Below the pieces are notes generated by a model. The model saw only the letters and a program-made list of their open reading frames with translations. It searched no databases and was not told the origin of the DNA. From NCBI GenBank assembly GCA_032622095.1, contig CP136066.1, positions 175,876,351 through 175,940,350 on the forward strand: a stretch of 64,000 bases of DNA, in the 5' to 3' direction. Shown piece after piece: positions 501 to 33,535 of the stretch. Each line of letters begins with the position of its first letter. Within the stretch, counting starts at the first letter, position 1. The position numbers were made by a program, and so were the translations under genes. Source of the DNA: Siphonodentalium dalli. Taxonomy: Eukaryota; Mollusca; Scaphopoda; Gadilida; Siphonodentaliidae.

Positions 501-1050
501 TAAATAATAAAAGACAACTCGTCACAATTATGATAATGAGAATTAATGAGACCAACACAATAATTAATAAATGATTACTCGTCACAATTATGATACTGGG
601 AATCAATGAGACCTACACAATACTTAATAAGAGATAACTCATCACAATTATGATAATGAGAATCAATGAGACCTACACAGTACTTAATAAGAGATAACTC
701 ATCACAATTATGATAGTGGGAATCAATGAGACCTACACAAATCTTACTGAGAGATTACTCGTCACAATTATAATAATGAGAATCAATGAGACCTACACAA
801 TACTTAATAAGAGATAACTCAACACAATTATGATAATGAGAATCAATGAGACCTACACAATACTTAATAAGAGATAACTCAACAAAATTATGATAATGAG
901 AATCAATGAGACCTACACAATAATTAATAAAAGATAACTCGTCACAATTATGATAATGAGAATTAATGAGACCTACACAATAATTAATAAAAGATATCTC
1001 GTCACAATTATGATATTGAGAATCAATGAGACATACGCAACACTTAATAC
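501..1050 (+). repeat. 60-bp minisatellite, block A (~9 units)
   Basis: An exact 60-bp period is visible, with the motif AATCAATGAGACCTACACAA recurring at 601, 661, 721, 781, 841, 901 and onward, a few substitutions per unit and almost no indels. Because 60 is a multiple of three, the minus strand stays open (755-1099, 114 codons) and reads a ~20-residue repeat. The same unit recurs at 27487-27607 and 28797-29945. Blocks A and 28797-29945 each sit just upstream of a Mab-21-like gene. Confidence 0.9.
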
Positions 1051-1470
1051 GAGAGAAGTAGGAGAAGAACAAAATGGATACATATGCTTTTTGAAACAAT
1101 TACTGTCTGATGAAACCAGAAGTATCTAACCAGTGCAGCTAGTCACGCGATGGTATACAGTCTAATATATCACACCCCATACATGTTAATATGCAGTATG
1201 CAGTTCACATTTGAAACCACGTCTGTTTTACAGCATCTGATCGTATTGGTGCCTGAGAACGGTGAAGTTAAAGATAATTTTCATGTTAACAAAGTTTAGA
1301 AAATGGGGTTATAATTTCCAACAGGTCGATGGTTCTTCAATATATATTCACAGTAATCGATAGTACTAAATTAAAAAAATAAATTACAGACATATATTAT
1401 ATATACTGATTATCCCACCCCGATTCATAAAAGACCATCGTTAACACCCTTAAGTAATCTGATGATATGA
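1051..1470 (+). other. Upstream block of gene A, conserved at gene B
   Basis: From the end of the minisatellite to about 1470 the sequence aligns by eye with 29938-30540 upstream of gene B. Shared stretches include GTCTGTTTTACAG, GGTGCCTGAGAAC, GTGAAGTTAAA, GATGGTTCTTCAATAT, TATTATATATACTGATTATC and CCTTAAGTAATCT. Copy B carries about 200 extra bases. The block probably holds the promoter and/or first non-coding exon of both genes. No TATA box or donor site can be assigned with confidence. Confidence 0.6.
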
Positions 1471-1507
1471 AATTAGAGATGAGTAGGAAACATATATACA
1501 CTATTTA

Positions 1508-1527
1508 CAACATAGTCATCTTCATCG

Positions 1528-1559
<32 letters not shown>

Positions 1560-2212
1560 GTCATCATCATCGTCATCATCATCATTGTCAACTTAATCAA
1601 CACAATAATCGCCATCTGTATCATGCTAATCGTCATCATTATCATCATCATCCATCATCATCATCCTCATCATCATAATCATAATCACCATAATCATAAT
1701 CAACATCATCATCATCATCAGCATCACCATCGTCGTCTACGTTGTCATCACCACCATCATCATCGGCAGAACCCGCCATCGGCATTATCGTCATTGTCAT
1801 CGCCAATATCACCACTATCCTGCAGTAGTCATCGTCATCACCATCATCATCGTCTTCGTCGTGGTCGCTGCCATCATCGTCCTCAACTATCTCCATCAGG
1901 ACCATCGGCGTCATCAACACACGTCGATCGATCATCGTCATCATCATCATCATCAGCAGCAGGAGCCGAAGCATCGTCATCATCATAATCATCACCATGC
2001 ATCATCATCTTTATCATCACCACTATCATTCAATCATCATCAATGTCAACGTACTTGCCATTTCATGCATCACCATCGTCCTCATCTTAATCATCGCCAT
2101 CATCGTCATCGTCGTTATCATCATCTTTGTTATCATCATCGTTTTTGTCATCGTCATTATTATCGTCATCGAGGTCATAATCCTCGATATCATCACCGTC
2201 GTTATTAGTCGA
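1508..2212 (+). repeat. ~700-bp imperfect (CAT)n microsatellite
   Basis: Long runs of CAT/CGT triplets produce His/Ser-rich and Asp/Met-rich open frames on both strands. These are by-products of the triplet repeat, not genes. It lies between the conserved upstream block and the conserved splice acceptor of gene A. The equivalent interval at gene B is only ~95 bp, so the repeat expanded in this copy alone. Confidence 0.9.
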
Positions 2213-2251
2213 TCCTTTGCAGTCCTATGTTAACATCCAAATATCATCGTT

Positions 2252-2270
2252 ATATTCATTTTTGTTTCAG
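2252..2270 (+). promoter_or_regulatory. Predicted 3' splice acceptor in the 5'UTR of gene A
   Basis: A T-rich tract ends in TTTGTTTCAG at 2261-2270, directly followed by AAAGACGACATG. The same junction occurs before gene B at 30636/30637. This suggests a non-coding first exon, an intron that contains the (CAT)n tract, and a second exon carrying the whole reading frame. Just after the junction an upstream ATG (2280) opens a 19-codon uORF that ends at 2336, before the main start. Confidence 0.5.
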
Positions 2271-2416
2271 AAAGACGACATGTTATTTATTTCCCACTCA
2301 CGTGATCTGAAAACAGTATTGGATGTCCGACATTGACAGGTGTACTAATACTGACACCATCGTCTTAAAATTGACACACCAAGGGGTCGTCAGAGTAAAG
2401 TATCCATTTACCAATT

Positions 2417-4405
2417 ATGGCGTCCTCGTCACGAAGTCTGTGCAGTGAGGACTCACATGAGCTATCTCTACGTTATAAACGGATTCTGCTGCAACATCAT
2501 ATCAGTAGACGTGCGGCACGTCGGTCGACTGATCGTTATAAAACGACATTAGTAGGGAGCGCCGCGAGCGGAATTGACACTACAAGAAGTGATGTAGATA
2601 TTCTGTTCGAACCTCGAAACATAATAATAGATGAATCCAGTTTGAGATACCGACATGACCTCCCGTGTTATGTCCGGATATCTACTGAGGGATTAGCTGG
2701 TCTCGTACCAAACGTCATCTTGGGTGACGGGAAATACGTGCTGGCTGATCCCATCAGAGACATGTGTGAAGAGATCTTTGGACAAACTAACGATGCTGAT
2801 GGATTATCAAAGGTTGGTAAGGTATTCAATGTGCTACACATCACCAGCGACGCTGTTCCACAACTACGAATCAGTGGTATTCCACAGACAGCACGCTTAT
2901 TTTCCACACGCGACCGGTCATGGCCATCAGACGATATTATATCGATAATTAGTACCGGGGAATTCCACCTTGCGGCACGACCTGCTCCATCAGACCCGGA
3001 CAGCGAGCACGATTTCTGTCTGTCGTTCGCTAAGGCAGAAGTCGTGCTGTTGAGAACAATGTCAGTTAACCAGAAACTCAGTATAAAGCTTTTGAAGATA
3101 ATCGGACGCGTCGTCGATTTTGGCCGGGGAGTGTTGACGTCCTACCATCTGAAGACGTCAGCTCTCTGGCATTTCGAGCAGACGGACGCTCCATTCTGGG
3201 AAAATGACATATCAGTAGTGGCTATATTAAAGAGACTTGATCAGTATTTAAAAGAAAGATTCCTGCCTCATTATTTTGTTCCTGAAATGAACTTGTTGAC
3301 TGGTGTCTCGGAATCTGATCTGATATACCTCCGCAGGCGTCTGTGGTCTCTTCTCGGGTTGTTTATCGTCACTGATGATATCGCGGGAATGACATCAGAC
3401 ACAAGGATGTGGCTCGCTTGTTTTGTCAGTAACTGTTGTCATCTCTTTGAAACCAACCAGAACAATACGCAGACGGGTCATATGTCTAATATCGGGAACA
3501 TACTCGAGGCAGCAGAGGTCATGTATGGAATCGGGATTGTATCCCATAATTTCATGAAACATCGAATATCCGCATCTGTAGTGACGAGGATCCCAACCTG
3601 TGCAGTCAGACGCCACTATGTCGACGAAGTTAAATCATTGCTTCTGCCATTTAATAAGACGGTTGATCTTTGGATTCGTTCTAGACAATTTGACTATTTT
3701 GGATTTGACCAATTTGTTGACGCTTTGTCTGACATCATGACTTCGACTGCGGAACCTTTAGAAGAGTTCTTCGTGATCAGATCGGCAGGTAAAAATAAAG
3801 GGGGCCGTCGTGCTGTACAAATATTGCGAAAACCAGAAATTATAATGAATAAATGGTTAGATTTCATCGATGATATCATTACCAAGTTTCAACGATACGG
3901 GAACATTGTTGCCGACCAAGTTTTACGTGGTATGTCACATAACTCACGTGGTGACAGCCGAGTAAGCAGCAATCTGTGCGAGGAAAACATCTACAAAGTT
4001 CTTAATAAAATTACCAAAGAGTTGCTAACGTTTGCAGTCGGGCATATTGAAACTTTCAGCTATCCTCTCGATAATAATGACAACTATTCATTCAGGCCGG
4101 TGCTAGTCAGCGACTGTCGGGCAAACAATTTCATAATACATGATGTTATCGATAGACTTTTCCTTAACGTCGAGTACGCTCTCGTTACGAGCGGTCGGAT
4201 CAAGGCATCTGGTGGATCAGGTGATCAGAAGGGAAGAATAATGCGAACGATGAATCCTGAGAGTCCAGAATATCGATGTTACTCGGCGCTCATATGTTTG
4301 TGCAAGGTGATTAATCAATTCGACGTGTTGTGTTCAGTGTCAGTTGAGCAACAAACTTGGATGGAATTCATTGCCGCCACATTCCGCCGAGAGCATTGTT
4401 CGTAA
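2417..4405 (+). CDS. Mab-21/cGAS-like nucleotidyltransferase-fold protein, gene A
   Basis: A 662-aa single-exon frame. The N-terminal half is a Mab-21 nucleotidyltransferase domain: a Gly-Ser motif at residues 47-48 (LVGSAASG), acidic residues D59 and D61 in SDVDIL, and D145 in DAVPQLRI, which fit the three metal-binding acidic positions of active cGAS-like receptors. The Mab-21 C-terminal helical lobe follows, with LSFAKAEVVLLR (~202-213), SYHLKTSALW (242-251) and LPHYFVPEMNLL. Family members bind double-stranded nucleic acid and make cyclic dinucleotides for STING, while others are inactive relatives; here the activity is inferred only. Residues ~330-662 match no domain I recognise. ATG GCG at 2417 is the first in-frame start, and the same start is kept in gene B. 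No signal peptide or membrane segment is seen, so it is probably cytosolic. The TAA at 4403-4405 aligns with a TCA codon in gene B. It could also be a non-enzymatic Mab-21 protein. Confidence 0.85.
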   Translation: MASSSRSLCSEDSHELSLRYKRILLQHHISRRAARRSTDRYKTTLVGSAASGIDTTRSDVDILFEPRNIIIDESSLRYRHDLPCYVRISTEGLAGLVPNVILGDGKYVLADPIRDMCEEIFGQTNDADGLSKVGKVFNVLHITSDAVPQLRISGIPQTARLFSTRDRSWPSDDIISIISTGEFHLAARPAPSDPDSEHDFCLSFAKAEVVLLRTMSVNQKLSIKLLKIIGRVVDFGRGVLTSYHLKTSALWHFEQTDAPFWENDISVVAILKRLDQYLKERFLPHYFVPEMNLLTGVSESDLIYLRRRLWSLLGLFIVTDDIAGMTSDTRMWLACFVSNCCHLFETNQNNTQTGHMSNIGNILEAAEVMYGIGIVSHNFMKHRISASVVTRIPTCAVRRHYVDEVKSLLLPFNKTVDLWIRSRQFDYFGFDQFVDALSDIMTSTAEPLEEFFVIRSAGKNKGGRRAVQILRKPEIIMNKWLDFIDDIITKFQRYGNIVADQVLRGMSHNSRGDSRVSSNLCEENIYKVLNKITKELLTFAVGHIETFSYPLDNNDNYSFRPVLVSDCRANNFIIHDVIDRLFLNVEYALVTSGRIKASGGSGDQKGRIMRTMNPESPEYRCYSALICLCKVINQFDVLCSVSVEQQTWMEFIAATFRREHCS

Positions 4406-4440
4406 AATGCTACGTCATTGAAGCTGAATGGGAAGCATGA

Positions 4441-4575
4441 TCACACATAAACTCGTGGAAGGTACCATGCATGTGTATACGATTCACACATAAACTCGAG
4501 GAAAGTACCATGCATGTGTATACGATTCACACATAAACTCGATGAAGGTACCATGCATGTGTATACGATTCACAG
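4441..4575 (+). repeat. 43-bp tandem repeat, 3 copies
   Basis: The unit beginning TCACACATAAACTCG and containing GGTACCATGCATGTG recurs at 4441, 4484 and 4527 in the 3' flank of gene A. A single copy lies at ~33222-33270 behind the gene-B pseudogene remnant. Confidence 0.85.
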
Positions 4576-4611
4576 ACAACCTGAATGGACAGAATCGCGA
4601 ACATCGTTAAA

Positions 4612-4945
4612 ATGAATTACTAGAATACAAATTGCTTACTCATATTATCATCCAATCACCTGACAGGGTTCTTTTATATGTTGGTTCGATATACCCTGTA
4701 AATATAAAAGGGGTATATTCCACCATATTTATATATATAGTTCAGTCTAACCTCCATCGAGTAACCATATAATTACTAGAATACAAAGCATATTTTATTT
4801 CACCACAAATGTCTTGCTCATAGTATCATCCAATCACCTGACAGTGTGTTTTTAATGTTGGTTCGATATACCCTGTAAATATAAAAGGGGCATATTCCGC
4901 CATAGTTAGTTGCTTTTAACCTCCAGCGAGTAACCATAGTTACCA
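4612..4945 (+). repeat. ~160-bp direct duplication in the 3' flank of gene A
   Basis: Two units (about 4612-4768 and 4770-4945) share GAATTACTAGAATACAAA, ATCCAATCACCTGACAG, TTGGTTCGATATACCCTG and the CGAGTAACCAT ending. The paralogous flank at 33310-33490 has one copy, so this duplication is specific to the gene A flank. Confidence 0.8.
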
Positions 4946-5224
4946 CACACACTGCATCGAGGTGGATAACAATATCCAGCAACATGCATCATATATGGAT
5001 GGAACATAATCTCCAACGCCCGCAAGCATAAAACCGTTCGTAAGGTTTACTTCTTAGAACATAGATATGAATCGCGATAACTAATAAACGAAGTGAGTAA
5101 ACACAGACTCGATGTGTCGAGGTGAATATCACTATTCAGCGACACATATCAAAGATGGATGGAACTCAGGGTTTCCAAGTTGCGACAACCGCGATCATAA
5201 ACGCCGTTCGTGAACGTTATACGT
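4946..5224 (+). repeat. Diverged duplication following gene A flank
   Basis: Two related stretches (about 4950-5050 and 5108-5215) share ATCGAGGTG...AATATC, ATGGATGGAAC and CGTTCGT motifs. GAGGTGGATAACAATATCC also occurs at 33510-33530, and the ATGAATCGYGATAACTAATA block recurs near 42978. These are dispersed non-coding repeats. An AATAAA lies near 5081, but nothing links it to gene A. Confidence 0.5.
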
Positions 5225-5565
5225 CAATAGGGAGGTTTAGATTGAAAAAAAAAATTCAAAATTCGCACGTAAGACATAACATACTATAATTCGAGAGAGC
5301 CCAGTCAGCTATATATTATTTTTAAACGAACATAAAGCGGTTTCGTTCCCTATCAATGAGACACGCAACGTGTCGTACTATAGTCAGCAGTAAATAGGGC
5401 CGCTACTCGCGTCTATCAATTCACACTCGATCGGTGCTATGCGGAGTTTATCAGCAGACTATAGTTGGTCTATCACTGACCACGATCTCCCGCCGTGAGG
5501 AACAGTATAATCTGATATTGCTTGACGGGTAAAGTTTGAAGTTTTCAATCTAAACCTCCATATTG
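5225..5565. mobile_element. 341-bp inverted-repeat (MITE-like) element
   Basis: The left end at 5225-5246 (CAATAGGGAGGTTTAGATTG) is the inverse of the right end at 5543-5565 (CAATCTAAACCTCCATATTG) with one mismatch. The interior is non-coding and includes the imperfect dyad CACGCAACGTGTCG. The termini suggest a non-autonomous DNA transposon; no superfamily is assigned. Confidence 0.6.
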
Positions 5566-5893
5566 AAGCCTACCATTGACTAGGACCTGATAACCACACA
5601 ATTACGTACAAACTAATCACACCAAACATAATCATATCACCTTACTGCGAGTGGCAAAACTATTTTAAACCACACTATTTTCTAACAAACGGACTCGTAG
5701 TCTTCAATTCTGCGAAAAATGTTTTTGGACCGTACGAAAATGTACGACTTGTATAAGCCATTCTTAGTCTATCAGTGTTATTTTATTGTGAAATAATTCA
5801 AACTTCACACGTACGACATAACAGACTATAATACCATGATGAATAGTATAATCTGATATTACTTGAAGTTTTCAATCTAAACCTCCATATTGA
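5566..5893. repeat. Deletion derivative of the preceding inverted-repeat element
   Basis: Positions ~5790-5893 repeat the inner part and right end of the 5225-5565 element (ACGACATAACA, AGTATAATCTGATATT, then the same terminal motif) without a left terminus. The flanking bases ACCTGAT also recur, so this looks like a direct duplication with internal loss. Confidence 0.5.
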
Positions 5894-6036
5894 AGCTGGT
5901 GTGGGACCTGATCACACACACACGAAGCAGTATGTCTATAGTATATACATTGTATATATATTTGATTAGATCATTGCTTGTCATGAATCTCTACTCTGAT
6001 TACATCCGTATATATCATAATCCACCAGCTCAAATC

Positions 6037-6177
6037 ATAGGAACGTGTTCATGTTCTGACAGGGAAGTTTATAACATTAAATTATAGGAACGTGTTCATG
6101 TTCTGACAGGGAAGGTTATAACATTAAATTATAGGAACGTGTTCATGTTCTGACAGGGAAGGTTATAACATTGACTA
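6037..6177 (+). repeat. 47-bp tandem repeat, 3 copies
   Basis: ATAGGAACGTGTTCATGTTC starts at 6037, 6084 and 6131. Copies are nearly identical, differing by one base in GGGAAG(T/G)TTATAAC, which indicates recent amplification. Confidence 0.95.
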
Positions 6178-7609
6178 AACATTTCAGCTATATTATATCT
6201 CCAAAAGTTGCAAAACATGCAATCTGGAGTTGGTACCATGGCCCCTTATTATGAAATAGATTATTAAGGAACATGTATACTGACAAATTAATATATTCCC
6301 TGTTTTGTGTGTTGAATGCTATAAATGTCCCCGTCAGGACGTCAACATGTTCCCATATTTTAAACGGATGGAAGATACCCTCTACGTGCGTAGCCAGAGC
6401 AGAAATTCACGACATGATCTAATACTTGTCGACCCATTCATATATTCTATAAGAGAGAGAAATATATTCAGCACATGCTTTGGAAACAGACAATCGTATA
6501 TTTTACAACCATATATAGGCTTGAAATACAAAGGCATCTCAACATAATTATTTTTTATTATATTATTATTATCATTTTTATGTTCCTGTCTAAAAAAAAC
6601 CTGAACTATAAATGCAATTGTAAAATAACCACCAAATTATTGTCAACATTTTGGGACCACTATTATCACAGGGACACATAAGATCCAACAGAAACGCCGT
6701 ATCACGCATCGCAAAAGATAGCGACGTTGGAAAAGCTTGCGGGACAAATACGCCTTATCAAAATGGCGGCGCTTCCGGTCGAGATGGGCGATTCACTTAT
6801 TGTATGGCTATCGCGGAAGGATGGAATCCATGGCTTCGGACATACCATCGTAGATACACGTGTGAGGTGAGTTGCATACACTCCCTTGTAGGTTGCAGCG
6901 TCCACTGTTCGGGAAGTTGTGGGTTCAAGGCCAAATTATAGTGATGAACGATACATCTCTTTTTGATAATACAAGACAACACCATTAGCATCTCAGTTGA
7001 AGCATGGAGTTAATATGATAAACATGAAGTTTTGTGTCAGTTTTGACATGATGAGAATCCATAGCATCAGGGTCAAACTGTGGTGTCAAATTCTGAAGTG
7101 GTGTTGACAAATATGATACACCTTAGATGCACATTTCAATGCACACGGATTGGTTCAAGTGATGTCACCTGATATATATATACGTATAAATTGTATTCGC
7201 GAGGCAAGGAAAATACACGCATTCTGGTTGGATATCAGCGTCCATTTGAAATGGACAACGTTTTATATTTATTTTCAGTTGTGAGCCGAAAAACAAAATC
7301 CAACCCTATCTCAGTAAAATGTGTTTGCTTCTCGCAAGTGCATGTATAACAACTCAGAAATACCTCAATTGACATCAGAAGTGTATCTATGGGGGAGTAT
7401 GTCCACCACCGCGACATACACACCATTGGCATGTATTTGGCATCTGATGCACATCGTGCTGGTAAATGAATAACAAGCGACGATTGTCGCCCCCCTCAAA
7501 AACCGGTTTAATTGAAATTTAAAAAAAATATATATAATTTAACATTCTGTTTACCACGATGGCAGAGATATAAAACAATTTCCAATATGCGTTAGCAATA
7601 CATTAGTCG
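6178..7609. other. Gene-free stretch, nothing recognised
   Basis: Only short unrelated open frames occur here (under 100 codons, none with recognisable motifs). A GTGGGTTCAAGGCC stretch near 6917 resembles a tRNA-type B box but has no convincing A box upstream. No repeat family could be assigned. Confidence 0.4.
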
Positions 7610-7685
7610 ATAGAATGTTAATACATTGGTCGATATACTGTTTTTCAATCCATTGGTCGATAGAATATTTTTCCAAGCAATTGCG

Positions 7686-8219
7686 TCACGAAAACAACCC
7701 ACTTCTCGAATTGATAAGAAATGTTGATATCTTTTCGATATTAAAGTTAACTTTATGTAAATGTGGTGCGCATTGGATGTCGACGTCTTTCTGGAGAAAT
7801 AATTTGTTTGTCGGATTCCGTAAAAATTGGGAAAACATATCTTTTCGTCCCTTTACAGTCGAAAATATCGAAGTTGTCCAACAGTGTGTTATAATGTTAT
7901 TCGGAAATGTATGCCCGTAGCTCTCAAATAACGATCTCACTCGCAATCTTCTGTTAGAGAATACATGTTTCAATTTTATAAATGTGTGGTCACAATAAAA
8001 TCTTTGTTTTAAAGATTTACAACTTTGTTTCCTTCCGCTCGATGTAGTTATCGAAAAATGCTTTAAATTATTGTGGTAGTTTATGAAGTCTTCTCCTATT
8101 AATTGATTATTAAAGTATATGTTGATTTTACTGGATATGTTGTTGTTGTGTCGGTTGTAATAGGTGTCGTTGGCGACCATTTGATTTCTTGCTGTTAGGT
8201 CGCGTTCACAAGCTCGCAC
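7686..8219 (-). CDS. Unrecognised 177-codon reading frame, doubtful
   Basis: An open minus-strand frame starts at an ATG at 8219. The product is basic and rich in Asn, Ser, Phe and Tyr, and I recognise no domain. The plus strand is also open for 101 codons over 7615-7920. No splice signals, paralogue or matching neighbour supports either strand. Just to the left (7600-7680) a ~30-bp motif with CATTGGTCGATAGAAT is repeated about three times. It may be chance or a fragment of an unknown mobile element. Confidence 0.15.
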   Translation of the reverse strand: MRACERDLTARNQMVANDTYYNRHNNNISSKINIYFNNQLIGEDFINYHNNLKHFSITTSSGRKQSCKSLKQRFYCDHTFIKLKHVFSNRRLRVRSLFESYGHTFPNNIITHCWTTSIFSTVKGRKDMFSQFLRNPTNKLFLQKDVDIQCAPHLHKVNFNIEKISTFLINSRSGLFS

Positions 8220-8277
8220 ATTTGCCTGTCATTTTAGCAGGAATTTCGATACAGAAATCTGGAATGTGCCAGAAAAC

Positions 8278-8410
8278 GAACGCAAACATGCTAAATGCAT
8301 CGGTACCACGTGATATCGATACCACGTGACAGTGTACCACATATAACTATGTGAGAAGTCAAAACGAACGCAAACATGCTTGTAAATGCATCGGTACCAT
8401 AGCTAACTGT
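8278..8410 (+). repeat. ~86-bp direct duplication
   Basis: CGAACGCAAACATGCT...AAATGCATCGGTACCA occurs at 8278 and again at 8364. The interval between contains two CACGTG (E-box type) hexamers in CCACGTGATATCGATACCACGTG. No gene is attached. Confidence 0.7.
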
Positions 8411-9030
8411 ATCAGAAGTAAAAACTTTGTAATTCCACGATGCTACCGACATTTGCCTATAAATAGCATTATTTTTTTTCTTCACAAGAATAAACCATAA
8501 AGGTAGTTGCATCATTACATGTGGAAGTACAGGAATTTTACTTATCTTTGCGTTAGCTTTGATAAGGTAGTTTTCTATGACGATATGCCTGAAAAAGATA
8601 TCACACAAATGTGCCAGTGTGTGCACGCAGCCTTAGGAGCCTCTGTTCATCGGAGTCGAGATCTCTAGACGAACTTAAGACTTAGGACGTGTAATCGGCG
8701 TAACTGTTGTTATATTTACATTCAATAACGAATTCTACACATCTTAGTTTCAGTGTGCTGTTCAACAATAGACACCTTTCGCACAATGAACACGTGACTG
8801 ATAACGATTACAGATGGCTAATAATAGTAGTAAATTTGTTGGACGGTCAAATTATTTTCTCTCGCAGAATTGACTATATACTAGTCCGTTTGTGAGAAAA
8901 TCGTTGCGTTCAAATTTCTTGCCACGCACCGTAAGTTGATATGATAATGTTTGCCGTGATTATTTTGTACTTTATTATGTTGTTATCGGGTCATAGTCAG
9001 TGGTAAGATCGATGTGTTATTAAAGCCAAA
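8411..9030. other. Gene-free stretch, nothing recognised
   Basis: No motif, repeat family or credible coding frame is seen. The longest minus-strand frame (8291-8626, 111 codons) has no recognisable features. Confidence 0.35.
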
Positions 9031-13769: not shown

Positions 13770-14314
13770 TGGTTGTGGAGCGTTGCAAGTATTATTTTGT
13801 TTAATTACATGCTGATAGTATATGCCTTTAATGTTATCTTACGTTTCCAGACAAAAGTTAACGGGACGTTACTCTATACTCAAGTATGCCTGGCTGCTTC
13901 TATTTAGTATAGCTTTGTTAGCATTTTGAATACTGGTTAATGTTACAGCCAAAAAATTATTTTATTTGCCCAAGTATGACGAAGACGTGAAGTCATACCA
14001 GTGTAAACTGTCGCTAAATTGTCGCCTTGACTTTGTGAACCGAAAACACACACTGTAAAGTAAATGCGAGGGATCAAACTTAATATTAATTTCATATCAA
14101 CAGGATGCACCAAATATATACTGAGACATATATATATGCCCTAAGGTAAGTAAGGAATTCGGAATTTGTTATCATTTTATACAAAAATCCAGTTTTTGTA
14201 TGTTAACGTTCGTTTTAAACACCGCGGTCTGGGTCAGGGGATGAAATGGATACTAAAATACGTCAAATAGCTACACTGATACAACTCTCTGATTGATGAA
14301 ATGCTTTTATATAT
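13770..14314 (+). repeat. Dispersed repeat family R1, short copy
   Basis: Blocks shared in order with 49003-51316 include GTTGCAAGTATTATTTTGTTT / TTTGCAAGTATTATTTTGTTT, TTAACGGGACGTTACTCTAT, GTGAA(A)CCGAAAACA, a CTAAGGTAAGTAAG stretch, AATCCAGTTTT, ACGTTCGTT, and TACACTGATA before the final TATATATTTAA. The far copy carries a long internal minisatellite where this one has a single unit. CTAAGGTAAGTAAG matches a strong 5' splice donor (AAG|GTAAGT) in both copies, so part of R1 might derive from a transcribed exon. It ends exactly where the MITE begins. Confidence 0.7.
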
Positions 14315-14816
14315 TTAAAGATACGATTGGCCTTGGCGGTGGGTATCCTGTGAAAATATCTCCACCCGTCAAAAACCGCCACAAACAGAAAGAACATCAA
14401 AATGTAGATATACGTTGTCCGCATACAAATAAGAAATATCGCATAAACAGTATGTTATGGTCATATGTTTGACCATTGTTTTGTAAACAAAAGCGTAAAA
14501 AGTAACTTTTCTGGTGTGTGTTTATATTATGATGGTAAACATAATGAGCGTTCTTTGTTGGTGAATACCTGATATGGAACTAATAAAGAGCGTTTATGCC
14601 ATTTGTGTGTTGTTAGCCAGTAGCATTGTGCTGTCTTCTGTAACACAATCTGGCTCTTGCTTAGGTAAAATATAGTAGGTCTTTATGATAACATGCTGTT
14701 TACGCGATGGTCATGGTATATATGAACGGAACTGTATGCGTTTTACTGTTTTTCTGTTTACGGTGTTTGGAACAAATATGAATATTTTCGACAATTAAGA
14801 CCTCACGTGCCTTTAA
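14315..14816. mobile_element. TTAA-bounded MITE, copy 1
   Basis: A ~500-bp non-coding element with near-identical relatives at 25496-25996 and 46172-46671. Consensus ends are TTAAAGRCACG at the left and CGTGCCTTTAA at the right, inverse of each other and bounded by TTAA. In R1 copy 2 (51317-51320) the corresponding site is a single uninterrupted TTAA, so TTAA is most simply the duplicated target, as for piggyBac-type elements. No transposase frame is present. Confidence 0.8.
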
Positions 14817-14849: not shown

Positions 14850-15925
14850 TGAATATTATATCTCCCTCACACTCCCTTCGCGTGTCTACATCTCTCACGA
14901 TATCCATCCCTCCCCTTCGGCTACATGTATATATCTCTGTCGCGATCACACTCCCTTCGCGTGTCTATATCTCTCACGATATCCATCCCTCCCCTTCGGC
15001 TACATGTATATATCTATGTCGCGATCACACTCCCTTCGCGTGTCTATATATATCTCTCACGATATCCATCCCTCCCCTTCGGCTACATGTATATATCTCT
15101 GTCGCGATCACACTCCCTTCGCGTGTCTATATCTCTCACGATATCCATCCCTCCCCTTCGGCTACATGTATATAACTCTGTCGCGATCACACTCCCTTCG
15201 CGTGTCTATATATCTCACGATATCCATCCCTCCCCTTCGGCTACATGTATATATCTCTGTCGCGATCACACTCCCTTCGCGTGTCTATATCTCTCACGAT
15301 ATCCATCCCTCCCCTCCGGCTACATGTATATATCTCTGTCGCGATCACACTCCCTTCGCGTGTCTATATCTCTCACGATATCCATCCCTCCCTTCGGCTA
15401 CATGTATATATCTCTGTCGCGATCACACTCCCTTCGCGTGTCTATATCTCTCACGATATCCATCCCTCCTTCGGCTACATGTATATATCTCTGTCGCGAT
15501 CACACTCCCTTCGCGTGTCTATATCTCTCTCACGATATCCATCCCTCCCCTTCGGCTACATGTATATATCTCTGTCGCGATCACACTCCCTTCGCGTGTC
15601 TATATCTCTCACGATATCCATCCCTCCCCTTCGGCTACATGTATATATCTCTGTCGCGATCACACTCCCTTCGCGTGTCTATATCTCTCACGATATCCAT
15701 CCCTCCCCTTCGGCTACATGTATATATCTCTGTCGCGATCACACTCCCTTCGCGTGTCTATATCTCTCACGATATCCACCCCTCCCCTTCGGCTACATAC
15801 ATGTATATATCTCCGTCGCGATCACACTCCCTTCGCGTGTCTATATCTCTCACGATATCCATCCCTCCCCTTCGGCTACATGTATATATCTCTGTCGCGA
15901 TCACACTCCCTTCCCATTCGGCTAT
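14850..15925 (+). repeat. 79-bp satellite array, ~13-14 units
   Basis: Highly regular unit containing CTCACGATATCCATCCCTCC, CTTCGGCTACATGTATATAT, CTCTGTCGCGATCACACTCC and CTTCGCGTGTCTATAT. Most units differ by zero to a few bases, with small indels (for example CCCC to CC before TTCGG). Since 79 is not a multiple of three, each forward frame cycles through all three phases. All three remain open for hundreds of codons because the unit lacks stops in any phase, so these frames are not taken as genes. Confidence 0.97.
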
Positions 15926-24929: not shown

Positions 24930-25033
24930 CATCGCCTCGGTCAGTGTTATCCATCGCATCGGTCAGTGTTATCCATCGCCTCGGTCAGTGTTATCCATCG
25001 CCTCGGTCAGTGTTATCCATCGCCTCGGTCCCA
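24930..25033 (+). repeat. 22-bp tandem repeat, ~5 units
   Basis: CATCGCCTCGGTCAGTGTTA begins at 24930, 24952 (one substitution), 24974, 24996 and 25018. Four full units and a partial one are nearly identical. Confidence 0.95.
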
Positions 25034-25495
25034 AGCGATTGATATAACGTTCTGCCCCATGATAATTTCCCACTATTTAATGAGAAAGCATATAATATAA
25101 AGCGTTTATCTAACAAATACATACAAAATTGTACCCAGTATTTCGGAGGCTTAACATGATACAATCGCTGTGGGGAACTATTATTGTTCACGGTGGAGTC
25201 CATCATGATTCTGAATACTTCTACGAGCATATATCATGGGCATGTGTATATTGAAATGACATATTTAGCCTTGATATACACAAAACAGCAATTTAGGTCC
25301 CGAAAATATTGCTGCCAAAATTGCCGGATCTCGAGAACATTACAATGGTAGAAACGCTTGAATATTCGACCAAGTTGGTAAATAAGAACGAACTATAAAC
25401 ACTTCTGCTCCTTAAATATAGAAACGCCATTCGAACATATCCATCTGAAGGATTTCTGATATCCACAAAAAAATGAAACAAATACCCTATGTGTT

Positions 25496-25996
25496 TTAAA
25501 GACACGGTTGGCATTGGAGGTGGGTATCCTGTGAACATATCTCCACCCGTCAAAAACCGCCACAAACAGAAAGAACATCAAAATGTAGATAGACTTTGTC
25601 CGTATACAAATAAGAGATATCGCATAAACAGTATGTTATTGTCATATTTTTGACCATTGTTATGTAAACAAAAGCATAAAAAGTTACTTTTCTGGTGTTT
25701 GTTTATATTATGATGGTAAACATAAAGAGCGTTCTTTGTTGATGAATACCTGATATGGAACTAATAAAGAGCGTTTATTCCATTTGTGTGTGATTAGCCA
25801 GTAGCATTGTGCTGTCTTCTGTAACACAATCAGGCTCTTGCTTAGGTAAAATATAGTAGGTCTTAATATAACATGCTGTTTACGCGTGGGTCATGGTATA
25901 TATGAACGGAACTCTATGCGTTTTAATGTTTTTCTGTTTACGGTGTTTGGAACAAATATGAATATTTTCGACAATTAAGGCCGCACGTGCCTTTAA
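25496..25996. mobile_element. TTAA-bounded MITE, copy 2
   Basis: Near-identical by eye to 14315-14816 along its whole length. It begins TTAAAGACACGGTTGGC and ends GCACGTGCCTTTAA. Shared landmarks include CTCCACCCGTCAAAAACCGC, TCTGGTGT.TGTTTATATTA and GAATATTTTCGACAATTAAG. Apparent frames on either strand are not conserved in purpose; the element is non-coding. Confidence 0.85.
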
Positions 25997-27486
25997 AGTG
26001 TGATTTCGGCTTAAACCTATCTGCGATTTGGTCGAGCATGCATGGCAATTTAGTGATGACATTTACAATTTCACGCGTCGCTCTTCCACTCTATAAGTTG
26101 TATCAATTTCCTTCACATTGATCATAACACTTTTGTCCTCACACACACCCAACCTCCAACACAAAGTTTTAACTCGTGAAGTTGCAACCATGGTCACGAA
26201 GTCCAGACAATGTCAGTAGTGTATTTTACAAACAGCTCAATTTCATTTTATTTAAAAAGATTCTCTGTCCGATTTTACACAAAATTTGTAAAAAATTTCA
26301 GATCACAAGGTAAAAGACAAATGAAAAACTCGTACAATCACAATAATTATTGTTCGCATTGAACACGCATCGCGAAAAGACACACATAATATCCATCCGT
26401 TTTTAATAAAAGCTCATAATGGAGAACGCTGTTTTGTCATTTACCGCCACTTACCGCCACTTACCGCCATTTAACGCCACTTACCGCTGGACGACGGGTG
26501 CGTGAACGCTCTTTATTAGAGACGTTAATTGTCATGTTTGCCAGGCTGACCAGAACAACCTCTTATGAATGAGTTCATGTGTCGATCGGAGTATTCTCGG
26601 AAAACATTGACAGTGGTTTTATGGTGTCAATCTGACTGGGCGTCTTTAAATGTAGTTAGCATATATTATATGTCATATACCTGTCATATACCTGTCATAT
26701 ATCTGTCATTGATTTGGCAAATTGGCACTGACATCATAAATAAACATATGCCTACATGTATCTTAAAGAACACAAATATTTCCGGTTATATGGCCCATAC
26801 GATTGATATTTGAGAAAATTATTCGAGTACGACAGCTATAATGGATACGGTGTGTAAATAGGGTCTCCATCCGTTTGAATGTTTTTCCAACTTGGAACAT
26901 CCAAGTGCACCCCCCTTCAACAGACCCAAAATCCCGCATCTAGGAAATCCACCCCATCCATTTTAATCGGAATTTTCCATCCGTTAATTGTTGAACATTC
27001 AGAAGATCTGCCACCCCTATTACAGTTGGATTTAAAAAAAATCAACCTATTAGAAAACATTAAACCTATTTTCGGTCTGAAATCTCCAACTGACGTTGTG
27101 TTAGATACGAAATTTCCAATACTTGATATTTTACCCATACACCATATCGACACGTTAATGACGATATGTTATTCTATATGTACCAGACAATTTCCAAGGT
27201 AAATAAAGTGTTTATGATTTTATTTCCATTGGCGGATTATAGTAATCATTCTTATGTGTCTTAACTCAGACTACATCATTCTCAAATGTGTAATTCACCA
27301 GCGTTGTCCTCCAATATGTACACCTTCTGTGGGTCAACGTCTTTGTTGCTCGATGTATTCGACTGATGCAACAATGGACGTGTGAATGTGTTATTTTCCA
27401 AACCACGATCATCACAAGATAACAAATGTTATGAAAAAGCAGTAATCCTAATTTGAAGTTATAAAAATAATCGAGTTCATTCAGGA
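25997..27486. other. Gene-free stretch with an unrecognised 107-codon frame
   Basis: The plus-strand frame 26879-27202 encodes a Pro/Ile/Leu-rich 107-aa product with no identifiable domain, and the opposite strand is open too. Near 26437-26490 CTTACCGCCA is repeated about four times, and near 26680 a CATATACCTGT motif recurs three times. Nothing supports a gene. Confidence 0.3.
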
Positions 27487-27690
27487 TGCAAGAGATAACG
27501 CATCACAATTATGATAACGGGAATCAATTTGACCTACACAATACCTAATAAGAGATAACTCGTCACACTTATGATAATGACAATAAATGAGACCTACACA
27601 ATACTTCACTCTTTCAAAATCGCAGCCCGCTTTAGCGGGCACGACGTAATTGACGTTAAACACCGTAGCCCGCTTTAGCGGCAGAGAATA
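27487..27690 (+). repeat. 60-bp minisatellite, block B (2 units), with twin hairpins
   Basis: Two units of the 60-bp repeat (27487-27607) are followed by two copies of a perfect or near-perfect hairpin: GCCCGCTTTAGCGGGC at 27625-27640 and GCCCGCTTTAGCGGC at 27668-27682, 43 bp apart. The hairpin resembles the one that precedes block A (471-489), but no CTRR terminus is seen here. Confidence 0.8.
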
Positions 27691-28796
27691 ATTTTCGGGA
27701 ATAACAGACAATAATATCACGTTTGCGGAGATATGCTAATGATTTTATTGACTGGCGACTTAGGTATCATATGGGTGATATTCTGTATCAATACTAATTT
27801 ACTGCTGAACACGTAGACCTGACAAATACGGCCACAATGAGATGTTCCAGGCCGAAATATATACAGCAGATGTATGACGTCACAATTACTATTGTTGGGT
27901 TTCCCTGGGATTCCCCAAAAATGCTGACGAAAACAATGCCGACGTGTGGTTTTTTTAATCAGATACACATGTACCAATTGATTAAGTTTGTTATTGTTTA
28001 TGACAAAGACAGTGCGATAACACATGTTTATGAAAAACAGACGATTGTTGCCCTTTGTAACGACGTTTTCTGTGGTAACCGTCTAGTGTCTCCTATTTTC
28101 GACGTAATGTTACGAAATTCACCGTGCCGTGCAATAGTGCGACTTCAATAATATTAGCTGCGAGTGCATGTTGTAAGCATGATATTGACACGCATAAACA
28201 GTTTGGGAACGCAATGGGATCATTGGCAGTTGTGTTGGAAAGTTATTCGTAATTGCTTAGCATTATTACAGTTGAATACACGTGGGCCTAACTCCGGGAA
28301 AATGGGTCTTTCTCGGTTAAATAACGCCTTCTTGGGCATACACTTGGTGTGATCTCATCATTATGCTCATTCCATGCCTTCTTATTTCATTCTTAATCAC
28401 CACATATGCTAAATTTACGACATGTGATGGATATATTGCTAATATAACAATTTGAATGTGAGTTTGGTCAATATACGTATGTGGTAAAATATTGCAAATA
28501 AAGTTAACTGTAACAGTAAATATTGAGTTCAAATGTATATACGCACCTAGTACATATGGCATGCGTTACCATGGTGATATAATCACAATTATATGACGTC
28601 ATTCATCGGCAGTTAGTTCAAATTGATGGGCTGTTGTCACTGGTCATGACAATATATGGGTGTTCATACCTACCACATCTATAAATACTAGTATGAATGC
28701 CCCACATGTGAGACAATGAATTTCCATATAAACGGCTGCAAACTCGGTGGCCTGGACCATTTGACCTCTGTAAATTTGGTGGCGAAAGAGTTAATA
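27691..28796. other. Gene-free stretch, nothing recognised
   Basis: Frames of ~100 codons exist on both strands at 27717-28151, overlapping and without motifs. No splice-consistent exon series could be assembled. Confidence 0.3.
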
Positions 28797-29945
28797 AGAG
28801 ATAACTCATCACAATCATGATAGTGAGAATCAGCGAGATCTACACAATACTTAATAAGAGATAACTCATCACAATTATGATAATGAGAATCAATGAGACC
28901 ATCACAATACTTAATAATAGATTACTCGTCACAATTACGATAATGAGAATCAATGAGACCTACACAATACTTCATAAGAGATAACTCATCACAATTATAA
29001 TAATGAGAATCAATGAGACCTACACAATACTTAATAAGAGATAACTCATCACAGTTAAAATAATGAGAATCAAAGAGACCTACACAATACTTAATAAGAG
29101 ATAACTCATCACAATTATGATAATGAGAATCAATGATGCCTACACAATACTTAATAAGAGATAACGCATCACAATTATTATGAGAATCAATGAGACCTAC
29201 ACAATACTTAGTAACAGATAACTCATCGAAATAATGATAATGAGAATCAATGAGACCCACACAATACTTAATAAGAGATATCTCATCACAGTTATGATAA
29301 CGGGAATCAATGAGACCTACACAATAATCAATAACAGATAACTCATCACAATTATGATAATGAGAATAAATGAGACCTACATAATACTTAATAAGAGATA
29401 ACTCATCACAATTATGATAATGAGAATCAATGAGACCTACACAATAATCAATAAGGGATAACTCATCAGAATTATAATGAGATTCAGTTAGATCTACACA
29501 ATACTTAATAAGAGATAACTCATCACAATTACGATAATGATAATAAATGAGACATACACAATACTTAATAAGAGATAACTCATCACAATTATGATAATGA
29601 GAATAAATGGGACCTACACAATACTTAATAAGAGATAACTCGTCAAAATTATGATAATGGGAATCAATTAGACCTACACAATACTTAATAAAAGATAACT
29701 CGTCACAGTTATGATAATGATAATAAATGAGACATACACAATACTTAATAAGAGATAACTCATCACAATTATGATAATGTGAATCAATGAGACCCACACA
29801 ATACTTAATAAGAGATAACTCATTACAATTTTACAATTACGATAATGAGAATCAATGAGACCTACACAATACTTCATAAAAGATAACTCATCACAGTTAT
29901 AATAATGAGAATCAATGAGACCTACACAATACTTAATAAGAGAGA
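28797..29945 (+). repeat. 60-bp minisatellite, block C (~19 units)
   Basis: Same unit as at 501-1050 and 27487-27607. Phase slips are rare: two 3-bp deletions (~29176 and ~29475) and one ~11-bp insertion (~29830). The minus strand is open from 29797 to 28922 (291 codons, ATG to stop) and reads about 14 copies of a 20-residue repeat close to LIDSHYHNCDELSLIKYCVG. Most unit differences would change amino acids, which argues against a selected protein. The block ends with GAGAGAGGTAGGTGAAGAAC, matching the end of block A, and lies ~0.8 kb upstream of gene B. Confidence 0.93.
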
Positions 29946-30621
29946 GGTAGGTGAAGAACAATGTACTGCTAATGAAACCGGAAGTCTCTGACCCGTACAC
30001 ATGTGATACATCACACCCTATACTTTACAATGAAAGCCACAAATATTTCAGTCGACTGAAATTTTGTTGTTGAAATGAAATCTGCTCCATTCAAACAGGG
30101 AGCAATCAACTGGAAATAGACCACGGTGTTTATATATAATGGTCAGCTGGGAATTAGATACGGACACATATGAACTTGAACTCATCTCAGCCCAATTTCC
30201 ATTGATCAACATGCATGGGAAATATTTATGGGTGGCTTAACGGTTTAATTTCTTGAATCAAGAAAAAATAAGTTTACATTTAAGTCCACGTTTGAAAACA
30301 AGTCTGTTTTACAGAATCTGATCTTCTCGGTGCCTGAGAACAGTGAAGTTAAAAATAATTTTCATGTCAACAAAGTTTAAAAAACGGGGTATAATTTCCA
30401 ACTGGTTGATGGTTCTTCAATATCGTGTCACAGTAATCGATATATCACATTTAAAAAAAAAAAAAGAAGAGAGATATTATATATACTGATTATCGCCACC
30501 CCGATTTATAATAGACCACCGTTAACACTCCCTTAAGTAATCTCCGTTATATTCACGTACGCTATATATATTCTACCCGTCATATCAAATCCCGATAAAA
30601 TCCAAATTACATTGTTATATT
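29946..30621 (+). other. Upstream block of gene B, conserved with gene A
   Basis: Counterpart of 1051-1470, with TGATGAAACC/TAATGAAACCGGAAGT, CACACCCTATAC, GTCTGTTTTACAG and GGTGCCTGAGAAC. It contains ~200 bp absent from copy A, including an 18-bp perfect palindrome at 30045-30062 (ATTTCAGTCGACTGAAAT), a possible regulatory dyad. It likely contains the promoter or a non-coding first exon; no TATA box is assigned. Confidence 0.55.
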
Positions 30622-30636
30622 CATTGTTTTTTTCAG
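30622..30636 (+). promoter_or_regulatory. Predicted 3' splice acceptor in the 5'UTR of gene B
   Basis: TTGTTTTTTTCAG ends at 30636, followed by AAAGACGACATG exactly as at gene A. The upstream ATG at 30646 opens a 30-codon uORF ending at 30735, before the main ATG. Confidence 0.5.
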
Positions 30637-30769
30637 AAAGACGACATGTTATTTATTTCCCCACTCACGTGCACTGAACAAAGTCTTGGATGTCCAACAT
30701 TGACCGGTGGACTAGTATTGACACCATCTTCTTAAAATTGAGTCAGAGTAAGGTGTCCATTTATTAATT

Positions 30770-32872
30770 ATGGCGTCCTTGTCACAAAGTCAATGTAGTG
30801 AGGATTCACATGAGCTATCTCTACGTTATAACCGGATTTTGCTGCAAGAGGAGATCAGTAGAGATGCGAGACGCCAGTCGACTGATCGTTATAAAATGAC
30901 ATTAGTAGGGAGCATGGCGAGCGGAGTTTCTTTTGAAGGAAGTGATTTAGATAATATGATTGAACCTCGGAACATAATAATAGATGAATCCAGCTTGAGA
31001 TACCGACATGACCTCCCGTGTTATGTCCGGATATCTACTGATGGGTTAGCAGGGCTGGTACCAAACGCCATCTTGGGTGACGGGAAATACATGCTGGCTG
31101 ATCCTGTTAGAGACATGTGTGAAGAGATCTTTGGAAAAACCAAGGATGCTGACGGATTATCAAAGGTTGGTAAGGTATACAATGATAGAAAGACCACCAT
31201 CGACGCTGTTCCACAACTAAGAATAAGTAGAATTCCACAGGCAGCACGCTTATTTTCCGCACGCGACCGGTCATGGCCATCAGACGACATTATATCGCTA
31301 ATAAGATTCGGTGAATTTAACATTACTGCACGACCTGCTCCATTAGACCCGGACTGTGAGCACGATTTCTGTCTGTCGTTCGCTAAGGCAGAAGTCGTGC
31401 TGTTGAGAACAATGTCAGTTTACCAGATACTCAGTATAAAGTTGCTGAAGAGATTCGGACGCGTCGTCGATTTTGGCCGGGGAGTGTTGACGTCCTACCA
31501 TCTGAAGACGTCAGCTCTCTGGTATTTCGAGCAGACGGACGTTCGATTCTGGGAAAATGACTTGCCAGTAGTGGATGTATTAAAGAGACTTGATCAGGAT
31601 TTTAAAAAAGGATTCCTTCCTCATTATTTTGTTCCTGAAATGAACTTGTTGATCGGTATCTCGGAATCTGATCTGATATATCTCCGCAGGCGTCTGTGGT
31701 CTCTTCTCGGGTTGTGTCTCATCACTGATGATATCGCGGGATTATCACGAATTACAAGGCTGGATATCGCATTATTTATATTTGATAATGTAAGTAGACA
31801 ACTCTCTGAAACAAACCCGGCTATCACGCAGACGGTTCGTATGTCGCATATCCCGAACACCATCGAAGCAGCAGAGGTCATGTATGGAACCGGGATTTTA
31901 TCCCATGACCTGAAACATCTAGTATCCAAAACTGTAATGGCGAGGTATCCACTCCCTGAAGTCAGACACCATTATATATACACAGCTAAATCATTGCTTA
32001 CGTCATTTAATAAGACGGTTGATCATTGGATGTATTCTGGACAATCCGAAGATATTTCATATGACGACTTTGTTACATATATGTCTAAAATTGTGGATTC
32101 AAATAAGGACCCCTTAGAAGAGTTCTTCGTGGTAACATCGACAGGCAGCAATAAAGAAGACCGTCGTGCTATCGGAAGAGCATTGCGAAAATCAGAAAAA
32201 TTAATGAATAATTGGTTGACTTTTATCGATAATATCATTACCAAGTTACCACAATACGGGAACAGTGTTGCTGACCAAGTGCTACGTGATATCTCACAAA
32301 AGTCACTCGGTGACGAAGAAAATATCGACAAACTTCTCTATAAATTTACCAAAGAGTTGCTAACGTTTGCAGTCGATCATATTGAAATGTTCAGCTATCC
32401 TCTCGATAATAATGACACCTATTCATTCAGGCCGGTGCCAGTCGGCGACTTTCGGGCAGACATTCACATATTGAAAGTCGTTGTGGGGAGACTATACCTT
32501 AACGTCGATTATGCTGTCGTTACGAGCGCTCGGATCAAGGCATCTCGTGTACCAGGTGATCAGACGGAAAGAATAAAGCAAACGATGAATCCGGAGAGTC
32601 CAGAATATCGATGTCGCTTGAAGTTGTTTGTATTAATCAGGGTGCTGAATAAATTCCACGGGTTGTGTTCTGTGTCAAGTGAGCATCAAGGATGGCTGGA
32701 TTATGTGGTCGCATTATTCTGTGAAAGCATTGCTATGTCAAATGATACGCCATTGAAGCTGAATGCGAAAGGAAGGAAGAAAGTCGAGGAAGGAACTAAC
32801 TATTTTCCAATGCGACAATGTTTATACCAACAGAGTTCTCATACAGTATTTAACAAAAATCAAAGCCGCTGA
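30770..32872 (+). CDS. Mab-21/cGAS-like nucleotidyltransferase-fold protein, gene B
   Basis: A 700-aa single-exon paralogue of gene A, collinear from residue 1 (same ATG GCG start). It keeps the nucleotidyltransferase signature: GS at 47-48 (LVGSMASG), D59 and D61 in SDLDNM, D145 in DAVPQLRI. It also keeps the helical-lobe hallmarks LSFAKAEVVLLR, SYHLKTSALW (242-251) and LPHYFVPEMNLL. The family includes sensors that produce cyclic dinucleotides and inactive relatives; the retained acidic triad makes activity plausible but unproven. The residues after the second acidic position (DNMIEP versus DILFEP in gene A) and the patch around residues 52-58 differ, so ligand or product could differ. At the position of gene A's stop, gene B has TCA and runs on for ~37 residues in a Lys/Gln/Asn-rich tail derived from sequence that is 3' flank at gene A. 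A poly(A) signal lies one base after the stop codon. Confidence 0.87.
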   Translation: MASLSQSQCSEDSHELSLRYNRILLQEEISRDARRQSTDRYKMTLVGSMASGVSFEGSDLDNMIEPRNIIIDESSLRYRHDLPCYVRISTDGLAGLVPNAILGDGKYMLADPVRDMCEEIFGKTKDADGLSKVGKVYNDRKTTIDAVPQLRISRIPQAARLFSARDRSWPSDDIISLIRFGEFNITARPAPLDPDCEHDFCLSFAKAEVVLLRTMSVYQILSIKLLKRFGRVVDFGRGVLTSYHLKTSALWYFEQTDVRFWENDLPVVDVLKRLDQDFKKGFLPHYFVPEMNLLIGISESDLIYLRRRLWSLLGLCLITDDIAGLSRITRLDIALFIFDNVSRQLSETNPAITQTVRMSHIPNTIEAAEVMYGTGILSHDLKHLVSKTVMARYPLPEVRHHYIYTAKSLLTSFNKTVDHWMYSGQSEDISYDDFVTYMSKIVDSNKDPLEEFFVVTSTGSNKEDRRAIGRALRKSEKLMNNWLTFIDNIITKLPQYGNSVADQVLRDISQKSLGDEENIDKLLYKFTKELLTFAVDHIEMFSYPLDNNDTYSFRPVPVGDFRADIHILKVVVGRLYLNVDYAVVTSARIKASRVPGDQTERIKQTMNPESPEYRCRLKLFVLIRVLNKFHGLCSVSSEHQGWLDYVVALFCESIAMSNDTPLKLNAKGRKKVEEGTNYFPMRQCLYQQSSHTVFNKNQSR

Positions 32873-32873
32873 T

Positions 32874-32879
32874 AATAAA
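32874..32879 (+). terminator. Poly(A) signal AATAAA at the end of gene B
   Basis: A canonical AATAAA starts one base after the TGA (32870-32872), which would give an extremely short 3'UTR if used. No equivalent hexamer lies close behind gene A. Confidence 0.5.
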
Positions 32880-32929
32880 GAAAACTTATAACACAAGTGG
32901 TTTTTCTTCGAGTCACAACTGCGTCATGT

Positions 32930-33208
32930 CACATATTGAATGACGTTGTCGGGAGACTGTTTCTTAACGTCGAATACGCTCTCGTTATGAGCGCTCGATT
33001 CAAGGCATCTCGTGGATCATGTGATCAGAAAGGATGAATGAGGCGAACGGTGCATCCTGAGAGTATTGAATATCGATGTCGCTTGGCCCTCTTCGCTTTC
33101 GACGAGGTGATTTGTCAATTCACGCGGTTGTGTCATCTGTCAAGTGAGCATCATGGATGGATGGAATTCATGGCCACCACATTCCTCCCTCTACGCCATT
33201 GTAGCTGA
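32930..33208 (+). pseudogene. 3' remnant of a third Mab-21-like gene
   Basis: Translation in one frame gives about 93 residues matching the C-termini of genes A and B (NDVVGRLFLNVEYALV, then PES.EYRCRLAL and SSEHHGWMEF). The frame contains a stop: the codon aligned with AGA in gene A's QKGRIMRTM is TGA, at about 33034-33036. It ends at its own TGA (33206-33208), and the following bases track gene A's 3' flank (GCTGAATGCGAAGCATGATC). The 5' end is abrupt, ~57 bp after gene B's stop. It is therefore a truncated duplicate left by tandem duplication or unequal exchange, and too short to encode a nucleotidyltransferase. Confidence 0.88.
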
Positions 33209-33535
33209 ATGCGAAGCATGATCACGCATAGACTCGAGCGAGGAAGGTACCATGCATGTGTATACGATTCACAGACAACCTGAATGGAAAGAATCACGGA
33301 CACCATTAAATTGAATTACTAGAATACAGAGCATATTTTATTTCACCACAAATGTCTTACTGGTATTATCATCCGATCACATGACAGAGTGCTCTATGTT
33401 GGTTCGAGATATTTTTTTTAAATTTTAACAGAGGCATATTCCACCATATATGTAGTTCCTTCTTACCTCTATCGAGTAACCATGGTTACCACAATCAGTA
33501 ATGTATGGAGGTGGATAACAATATCCAGCAACACC
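33209..33535 (+). repeat. Gene-A-type 3' flank behind the pseudogene
   Basis: It is collinear with 4425-4990: GGTACCATGCATGTGTATAC, GACAACCTGAATGG, GAATTACTAGAATACA, TTTATTTCACCACAAATGTC, TATGTTGGTTCGA, GAGTAACCATGGTTACCAC and GAGGTGGATAACAATATCC. Each segment is single here but tandemly duplicated behind gene A. Confidence 0.8.

Follow-up and report, generated by a model that had tools for sequence, protein, structure and literature searches.

What are neighbouring copies of a gene related to cGAS for in the genome of a scaphopod mollusc, and what has driven them apart? The question is raised by a stretch of 64,000 nucleotides of Siphonodentalium dalli (contig CP136066.1, here C6:175876351-175940350, in a genome of 2.23 Gb on nine contigs), which is called the window below and is numbered from its first letter. 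Two Mab-21 family genes lie on its forward strand: gene A (2417..4405), whose single-exon coding region gives 662 amino acids, and gene B (30770..32872), of 700 amino acids. With moderate confidence, A and B are read here as members of a recently multiplied repertoire of cGAS-like sensors, in which the output is conserved and recognition has diversified; the sensing itself, the product and its coupling to STING are what we infer for the A/B family.

Family identity and predicted fold

Placement of the two proteins in the Mab-21/cGAS family, first proposed in a sequence-only reading of the window, is borne out by three approaches that agree, namely Pfam, a PDB sequence search, and AlphaFold2 modelling followed by VIA-align. 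Gene A joins a Mab-21 nucleotidyltransferase (NTase) domain, a Mab-21_C domain and a helical C-terminal extension. In the Pfam comparison (PF03281/PF20266), Mab-21_C scores above the curated cut-off in both A and B, and the Mab-21 NTase model gives 24.6 bits for A against a cut-off of 24.1, B being without a listing for this model. At E<=0.01, Mab-21_C is found in 51 of 51 members and the NTase model in 47 of them. The nearest solved structures by sequence are cGAS-like receptors (cGLRs) and MB21D2, and in an AlphaFold2 model of A the NTase and helical core are predicted to take a cGAS-like fold. A two-sequence AlphaFold2 model reached a pLDDT of 38 and was set aside. The extension, of about 320-345 amino acids, has no Pfam match and none in the VIA-align list for the A model, which gives no evidence of a new fold, the extension not having been searched alone.

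Several features set the family apart from its relatives. It shares Mab-21_C and Mab-21 with MB21D2 and the Mab-21-like proteins, MB21D2 being second-best by profile, but is arrayed, fast-evolving and extended. Identity to human, mouse and pig cGAS is 14-17%, and in comparison with these the family adds the C-terminal domain and the multigene array. The A/B alignment shows no Cys/His-rich insert before helix 217-234, at about residues 214-217, where we presume the cGAS zinc thumb to lie, between the SF..E helix and the next helix. Unlike animal cGLRs, the family has a variable residue between the first two catalytic aspartates, the long helical extension, and hypervariability at defined sites. 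It also forms clusters of closely related copies, which among cGLRs are an exception found in insects (PMC9980059).

Frozen catalytic residues and fast-changing sites

A protein search with A gave 68 matches, corresponding to 67 loci as one gene gives two rows, and because 67 of 320 candidates were scored the family is put at 67 loci or more. The matched span is free of internal stops in 54 of the 67, with open frames of 561-991 codons. Sequences were obtained for 62 loci (two from the window), the remaining five all being stop-bearing. Across the family the GS motif and the three catalytic aspartates (D59, D61 and D145) are near-invariant, and S203, E208, K227, S242 and Y243 are invariant in all 62 genes; the last five align with what we take, by cGAS numbering, to be the nucleotide pocket.

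Site-by-site selection was analysed in 35 of the 62 genes, all stop-free and located on C6 or C9, with two B-type copies retained; 8 stop-bearing genes, 8 further genes of C4, C7 and C8, and 11 near-copies or shortened genes were excluded. The 35 have a median pairwise protein identity of 62%. Allowing the replacement rate (beta) to exceed the synonymous rate (alpha) raised twice the log-likelihood (2lnL) by 248.4, and 83 of the 662 sites had beta>alpha at P>0.9 (54 at P>0.95), alongside 109 sites under purifying selection at P>0.9. In a data set simulated on the true trees with beta<=alpha, the gain was 2.3, with 3 sites at P>0.9 and none at P>0.95. When eight small stretches were each given a separate tree, largely the same fast-changing (hot) sites were recovered. 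The suggestion that A and B diverge near the nucleotidyltransferase loop thus stands, and the divergence carries a signature of positive selection at specific sites.

The two kinds of site alternate along the catalytic strands. On the strand with the first two aspartates, beta is 0.08 at D59, 7.94 at position 60, 0.20 at D61 and 1.82 at position 62, and around the third aspartate it is 2.69 at position 144, 0.10 at D145, 4.17 at 146 and 0.13 at 147. The hairpin 137-142 ranges from 2.95 to 7.33, and position 60 alone holds 15 kinds of residue among the 62 genes. Hot sites of the core include positions 60, 62, 144 and 146, the hairpin, residues 28-36 and a single face of helix 217-234, and the extension carries many more. 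Hot sites fall on one face of helix 217-234 (p 0.01; 0.0017 when weighted by beta) and of helix 567-597 (p 0.002). A patch of 21 positions, chosen by the analyst, reads as 55 distinct strings in the 62 genes, with a net charge running from -4 to +4. Because successive residues point alternately to the two sides of a strand, the frozen ones would look towards the active site and the hypervariable ones away from it. So placed, the hypervariable strand residues would point to the face on which the activator is bound in cGAS and, according to PMC9980059, in cGLRs.

The hot sites were also followed in pairs of genes, chosen by the analyst from among all possible pairs both for these counts and for the whole-gene comparisons given below. 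In three out-of-sample pairs (two C7 pairs and L014/L016, each member of which is stop-bearing), the ratio of replacement to synonymous change (pN/pS) was 4.37 at hot sites, with 107.25 replacement and 8.75 synonymous changes (P 4e-7 against neutrality), and 0.85 at the other sites. A more diverged C4 pair, left out of this sum, gave 1.91 and 0.70, respectively. Hot sites were enriched in replacements in all seven pairs examined, five of them outside the site-test set.

Origin of the copies and their surroundings

The sequence-only reading had described three copies of the locus, sharing a minisatellite, a 5′ block, a splice acceptor, the coding region and a flank. Genes A and B do share the minisatellite, the 5′ block and the acceptor context, and the third copy proved to be a stop-bearing 3′ remnant, here remnant C. 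All features of the three copies lie on the forward strand. Self-comparison of the window confirms that the collinearity of A and B extends outside the coding region: the 5′ untranslated region (UTR) and coding sequence of A (2231-4434) match 30596-32769 at 81% identity, and the conserved 5′ block of A (1202..1460) matches that of B (30283..30543) at 85%. The 5′ UTR regions (2231..2416 in A, collinear with 30596-30769; 30596..30769 in B) contain putative splice acceptors, AG at 2269-2270 and at 30635-30636. The context of these acceptors, claimed to be identical, is near-identical downstream when the sequences are compared by eye. Between the 5′ block and the acceptor, A alone has a low-complexity insertion of (CAT)n type (1516..2170), and B has about 50 bp at the corresponding place. 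A control search with gene B written backwards gave zero matches at E<=1e-3.

At the 3′ side, gene A is followed by a flank (4403..4985) that includes a 43-bp tandem repeat (4441-4574) and matches the flank of remnant C within 33222-33533. Gene B past 32769 is without a match to A, as is the whole of the roughly 160 bp (32770..32928) between its homologous end and remnant C, which contain the B stop and an AATAAA at 32874. Remnant C (32929..33208) preserves the final 92 or so codons of a third copy, interrupted by a single in-frame TGA (33035-33037), and has a 3′ flank of gene-A type (33209..33533). The earlier report of such a 3′ end behind gene B is therefore upheld, gene A segments 4132-4505, 4527-4768 and 4771-4984 matching pieces within 32932-33533 at 74-81%. 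Each of the six B-type copies with available flanks is followed, at an equal offset, by a flank of gene-A type, so the B-plus-remnant arrangement is part of the B unit and predates its amplification. We infer that a deletion probably joined a B copy to the end of its neighbour, leaving remnant C.

A 60-bp minisatellite precedes both genes, as had been noted, with 9.2 units before A (505..1054; Tandem Repeats Finder) that are about 86-89% identical to the 19.2 units before B (28791..29943); a short array of 1.9 such units lies at 27490..27604. Its extent differs among near-identical B copies. In a survey of 27 loci with flanks (22 on C6 and C9, five on C4, C7 and C8), it occurred in 12 of the 22 and 0 of the five within about 4 kb upstream (2.4 kb or so for gene A; L010, among the 22, was one-third masked), which rules it out as a fixed component of the unit. 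The 5′ block is present at 21 of the 22 C6/C9 loci and none of the other five, and 3′ flank matches at all 22. Because the 5′ block and 3′ flanks are common to the C6/C9 loci, duplication together with flanks is, on sequence comparison, the rule in the family, and retrocopying is not needed, in agreement with the segmental duplication first proposed.

The local amplification seen in the window extends far beyond it, with some copies 99-100% identical. C6 carries two arms of opposite orientation: all 13 matches at 170.7-171.5 Mb read on the minus strand, all 15 at 175.0-175.9 Mb on the plus strand. In a quick tree of the 62 genes these two arms are intermixed, with 9 changes each. The groups at 178-179 Mb, at 47-50 Mb and on C7 each fall on one side of a branch, with Shimodaira-Hasegawa-like approximate likelihood-ratio (SH-aLRT) supports of 100, 88 and 99. 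The coding regions of L041 and L058 (C6:178086141 and 178108681), 22 kb apart, are identical over 1995 bases. At C6:50054735-50056933 on the minus strand, a 991-codon open frame, part of which lies in L065, has two Mab-21_C matches, like a two-unit fusion of a family gene. A genome search with Mab-21_C found at least 150 matches, all above the cut-off (150 of 253 candidates scored).

Identity among seven B-type copies is 98-100%. The near-identical B copies are of two types, L024/L025/L026 and window B with L027, L028 and L055, which differ at codons 49, 55, 60, 63 and 67, four of these being amino-acid changes beside the catalytic motif. The differences are clustered, with 5 of 14 differing codons in this tract (scan p 0.003). 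Gene conversion was considered as the source and rejected, the tract occurring in no non-B gene of the 62; the nearest non-B gene differs by 10 bases over codons 45-68.

Directly after the remnant C flank, a long imperfect palindrome (33550-33667), whose arms end TTAAGACGGCCAG / CTGGTCATCTTAA as judged by eye, resembles a foldback or MITE-type insertion. A dispersed repeat occurs as three copies of about 500 bp, 93-94% alike (14314-14816, 25495-25996 and 46160-46671). LINE-type elements with reverse transcriptase and endonuclease domains lie on the minus strand at 38032-41057, with a 258-bp tandem duplication at 38754-39263, and at 61264-64000, and minus-strand retroelement pieces at 57209-60179 carry integrase, RNase H and reverse transcriptase domains, each in a separate frame. 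A 79-bp minisatellite (14867-15913; 13 units, 96% alike) alone yields open frames of up to about 396 codons, and the minisatellites at 49544-50127 (34 bp) and 50866-51288 (43 bp) differ in period and share unit sequence.

A proposed sensor repertoire and its rivals

In the reading that we favour, that of a cGAS-like sensor repertoire, segmental and tandem duplication would generate the copies, and selection by pathogens would keep them open and diversify them. As intracellular sensors they would present differing recognition surfaces joined to a single conserved catalytic output, a cyclic (di)nucleotide that would be read by STING. Exons for a STING-like receptor are present in the same genome: of the 41 candidates scored with the STING ligand-binding domain (STING_LBD), 8 exon matches exceed the cut-off, and they suggest more than one STING-like gene. 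Seven of them sit at C8:118.3-151.4 Mb and one at C9:20.1 Mb. More tentatively, the arrays may form a germline repertoire with a frozen second-messenger site and a hypervariable surface, made up of the back of the catalytic sheet and the C-terminal helical domain, giving each animal dozens of differently tuned sensors. Their ligands would perhaps include some other than nucleic acid, the net charge of the patch running from -4 to +4, and the sets would perhaps differ between individuals.

A number of results weigh against the sensor-repertoire reading. The codon test is our own FUBAR-like grid, run in six blocks with a tree each and set against one simulated null. Gene conversion can mislead site tests when the genes are paralogs, and a four-gamete permutation test, which has limited power, gave no recombination signal (p 0.73, 0.40 and 0.22). 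Whole-gene omega, the ratio of replacement to synonymous rates, is about 1 overall. Between A and B the replacement rate (dN) is 0.194 and the synonymous rate (dS) 0.211, giving an omega of 0.92 by NG86 (two further methods give 1.06 and 1.09); it is about 0.6 for residues 1-215 and 1.1-1.3 for the extension. The two genes differ at 19% of first, 16% of second and 17% of third codon positions. Among 14 chosen pairs, omega is confidently below 1 in the young pairs L017/L019 (0.26), L063/L064 (0.44) and L037/L040 (0.51) and reaches 2.27 in L048/L050 (confidence interval 1.39-5.49), the remaining intervals including 1. Internal stops occur in 13 of the 67 loci and in 8 of the 62 fetched genes. 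Back-face placement derives from strand alternation and helix periodicity, and in seven of the nine helices with at least three hot sites the one-face test gave p 0.07-0.66 (0.11 for helix 28-34), some of these falling below 0.05 when weighted by beta.

To the same side belongs the strict cGLR motif, h[QT]GS X8-20 [DE]h[DE]h X50-90 h[DE]h, which none of the 62 genes passes because valine occupies the position before GS that is Q or T in animal cGLRs such as Cv-cGLR1 of Crassostrea virginica (8gjw) and cGLR1 (8gjy). Without the Q/T demand 22 of the 62 pass. The looser form, G[S/G] with [ED]h[ED] X50-90 [ED], is found in A (DVD) and in B (DLD), with the third aspartate in range, and in 38 of the 62 genes with the hydrophobic residue, 60 without it and 56 when anchored to the family context, the criteria being those of PMC9980059 and the residues scored as hydrophobic being chosen by the analyst. 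The strict motif being absent, the genes are therefore filed as Mab-21 family with a cGAS fold, and are cGLRs by the looser criterion only.

The main rival to the repertoire reading is antagonist escape at the same surface, in which a single kind of ligand (e.g. dsRNA or dsDNA) is sensed and the hypervariable sites are contacts of pathogen inhibitors or degraders. We regard this as the less probable account, though one with a precedent: primate cGAS and OAS1 have positively selected sites in the spine helix and elsewhere on the surface, as the family here does, and these are read as inhibitor escape (PMC4420275). The many hot sites of the extension, which has no assigned recognition role, also favour escape. 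In the scaphopod, selection acts among dozens of paralogs in one genome and also on strands beside the catalytic aspartates. Against escape, a recognition repertoire accommodates the dozens of copies and their 55 patch strings no less well, and escape by itself would not need so many copies in parallel. That the family duplicated in some other conflict (reproductive, transposon-control or selfish), or is a metabolic NTase rather than a pathogen sensor, seems improbable; the Mab-21-like protein Mab21L1 is developmental (PMC9980059), but the closeness to cGLRs as well as MB21D2 and the STING-like exons both speak against such a role.

An assembly artefact, with near-identical copies being unresolved haplotypes, is very improbable for the family. 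The oppositely oriented minus arm, 4.8-4.9 Mb away, does contain a 99.9% twin of A and a 100% twin of B, but the two twins are not neighbours there: the B-type copy about 30 kb from the A twin has 15 bases unlike B, and the copy identical to B is found at another place in the arm. Given this mismatch, the 62% median identity and an unequal minisatellite extent between the A twins, any artefact would be limited to a few pairs. Relaxed constraint in a decaying array of near-pseudogenes, in which an omega near 1 means neutrality, is the least credible of all: the A-to-B omega and the internal stops agree with it, but as a full account it is refuted by the frames open over at least 561 codons in 54 of 67 loci, the need for beta>alpha classes, the hot-site excess in the three outside pairs and the near-invariant catalytic residues, with the omega of L048/L050 also against it.

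Large cGLR sets in bivalves and other invertebrates (PMC9980059) and positive selection on single primate cGAS/OAS genes were known already. In a search of the open-licence PMC literature by titles and the openings of abstracts, no description was found of mapped hypervariable sites in an arrayed Mab-21/cGLR family. Many of the cGLRs tested so far appeared inactive, likely for want of their ligand (PMC9980059). The pattern described here, catalytic residues that stay frozen beside fast-changing sites, is what an arms race between receptors and germs would be expected to produce, and with dozens of intact, related copies whose variable residues are mapped, exchanges between paralogs could reveal what they recognise. 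It becomes testable in this way whether cGAS-like enzymes can form a repertoire in an animal, akin to other large receptor families.
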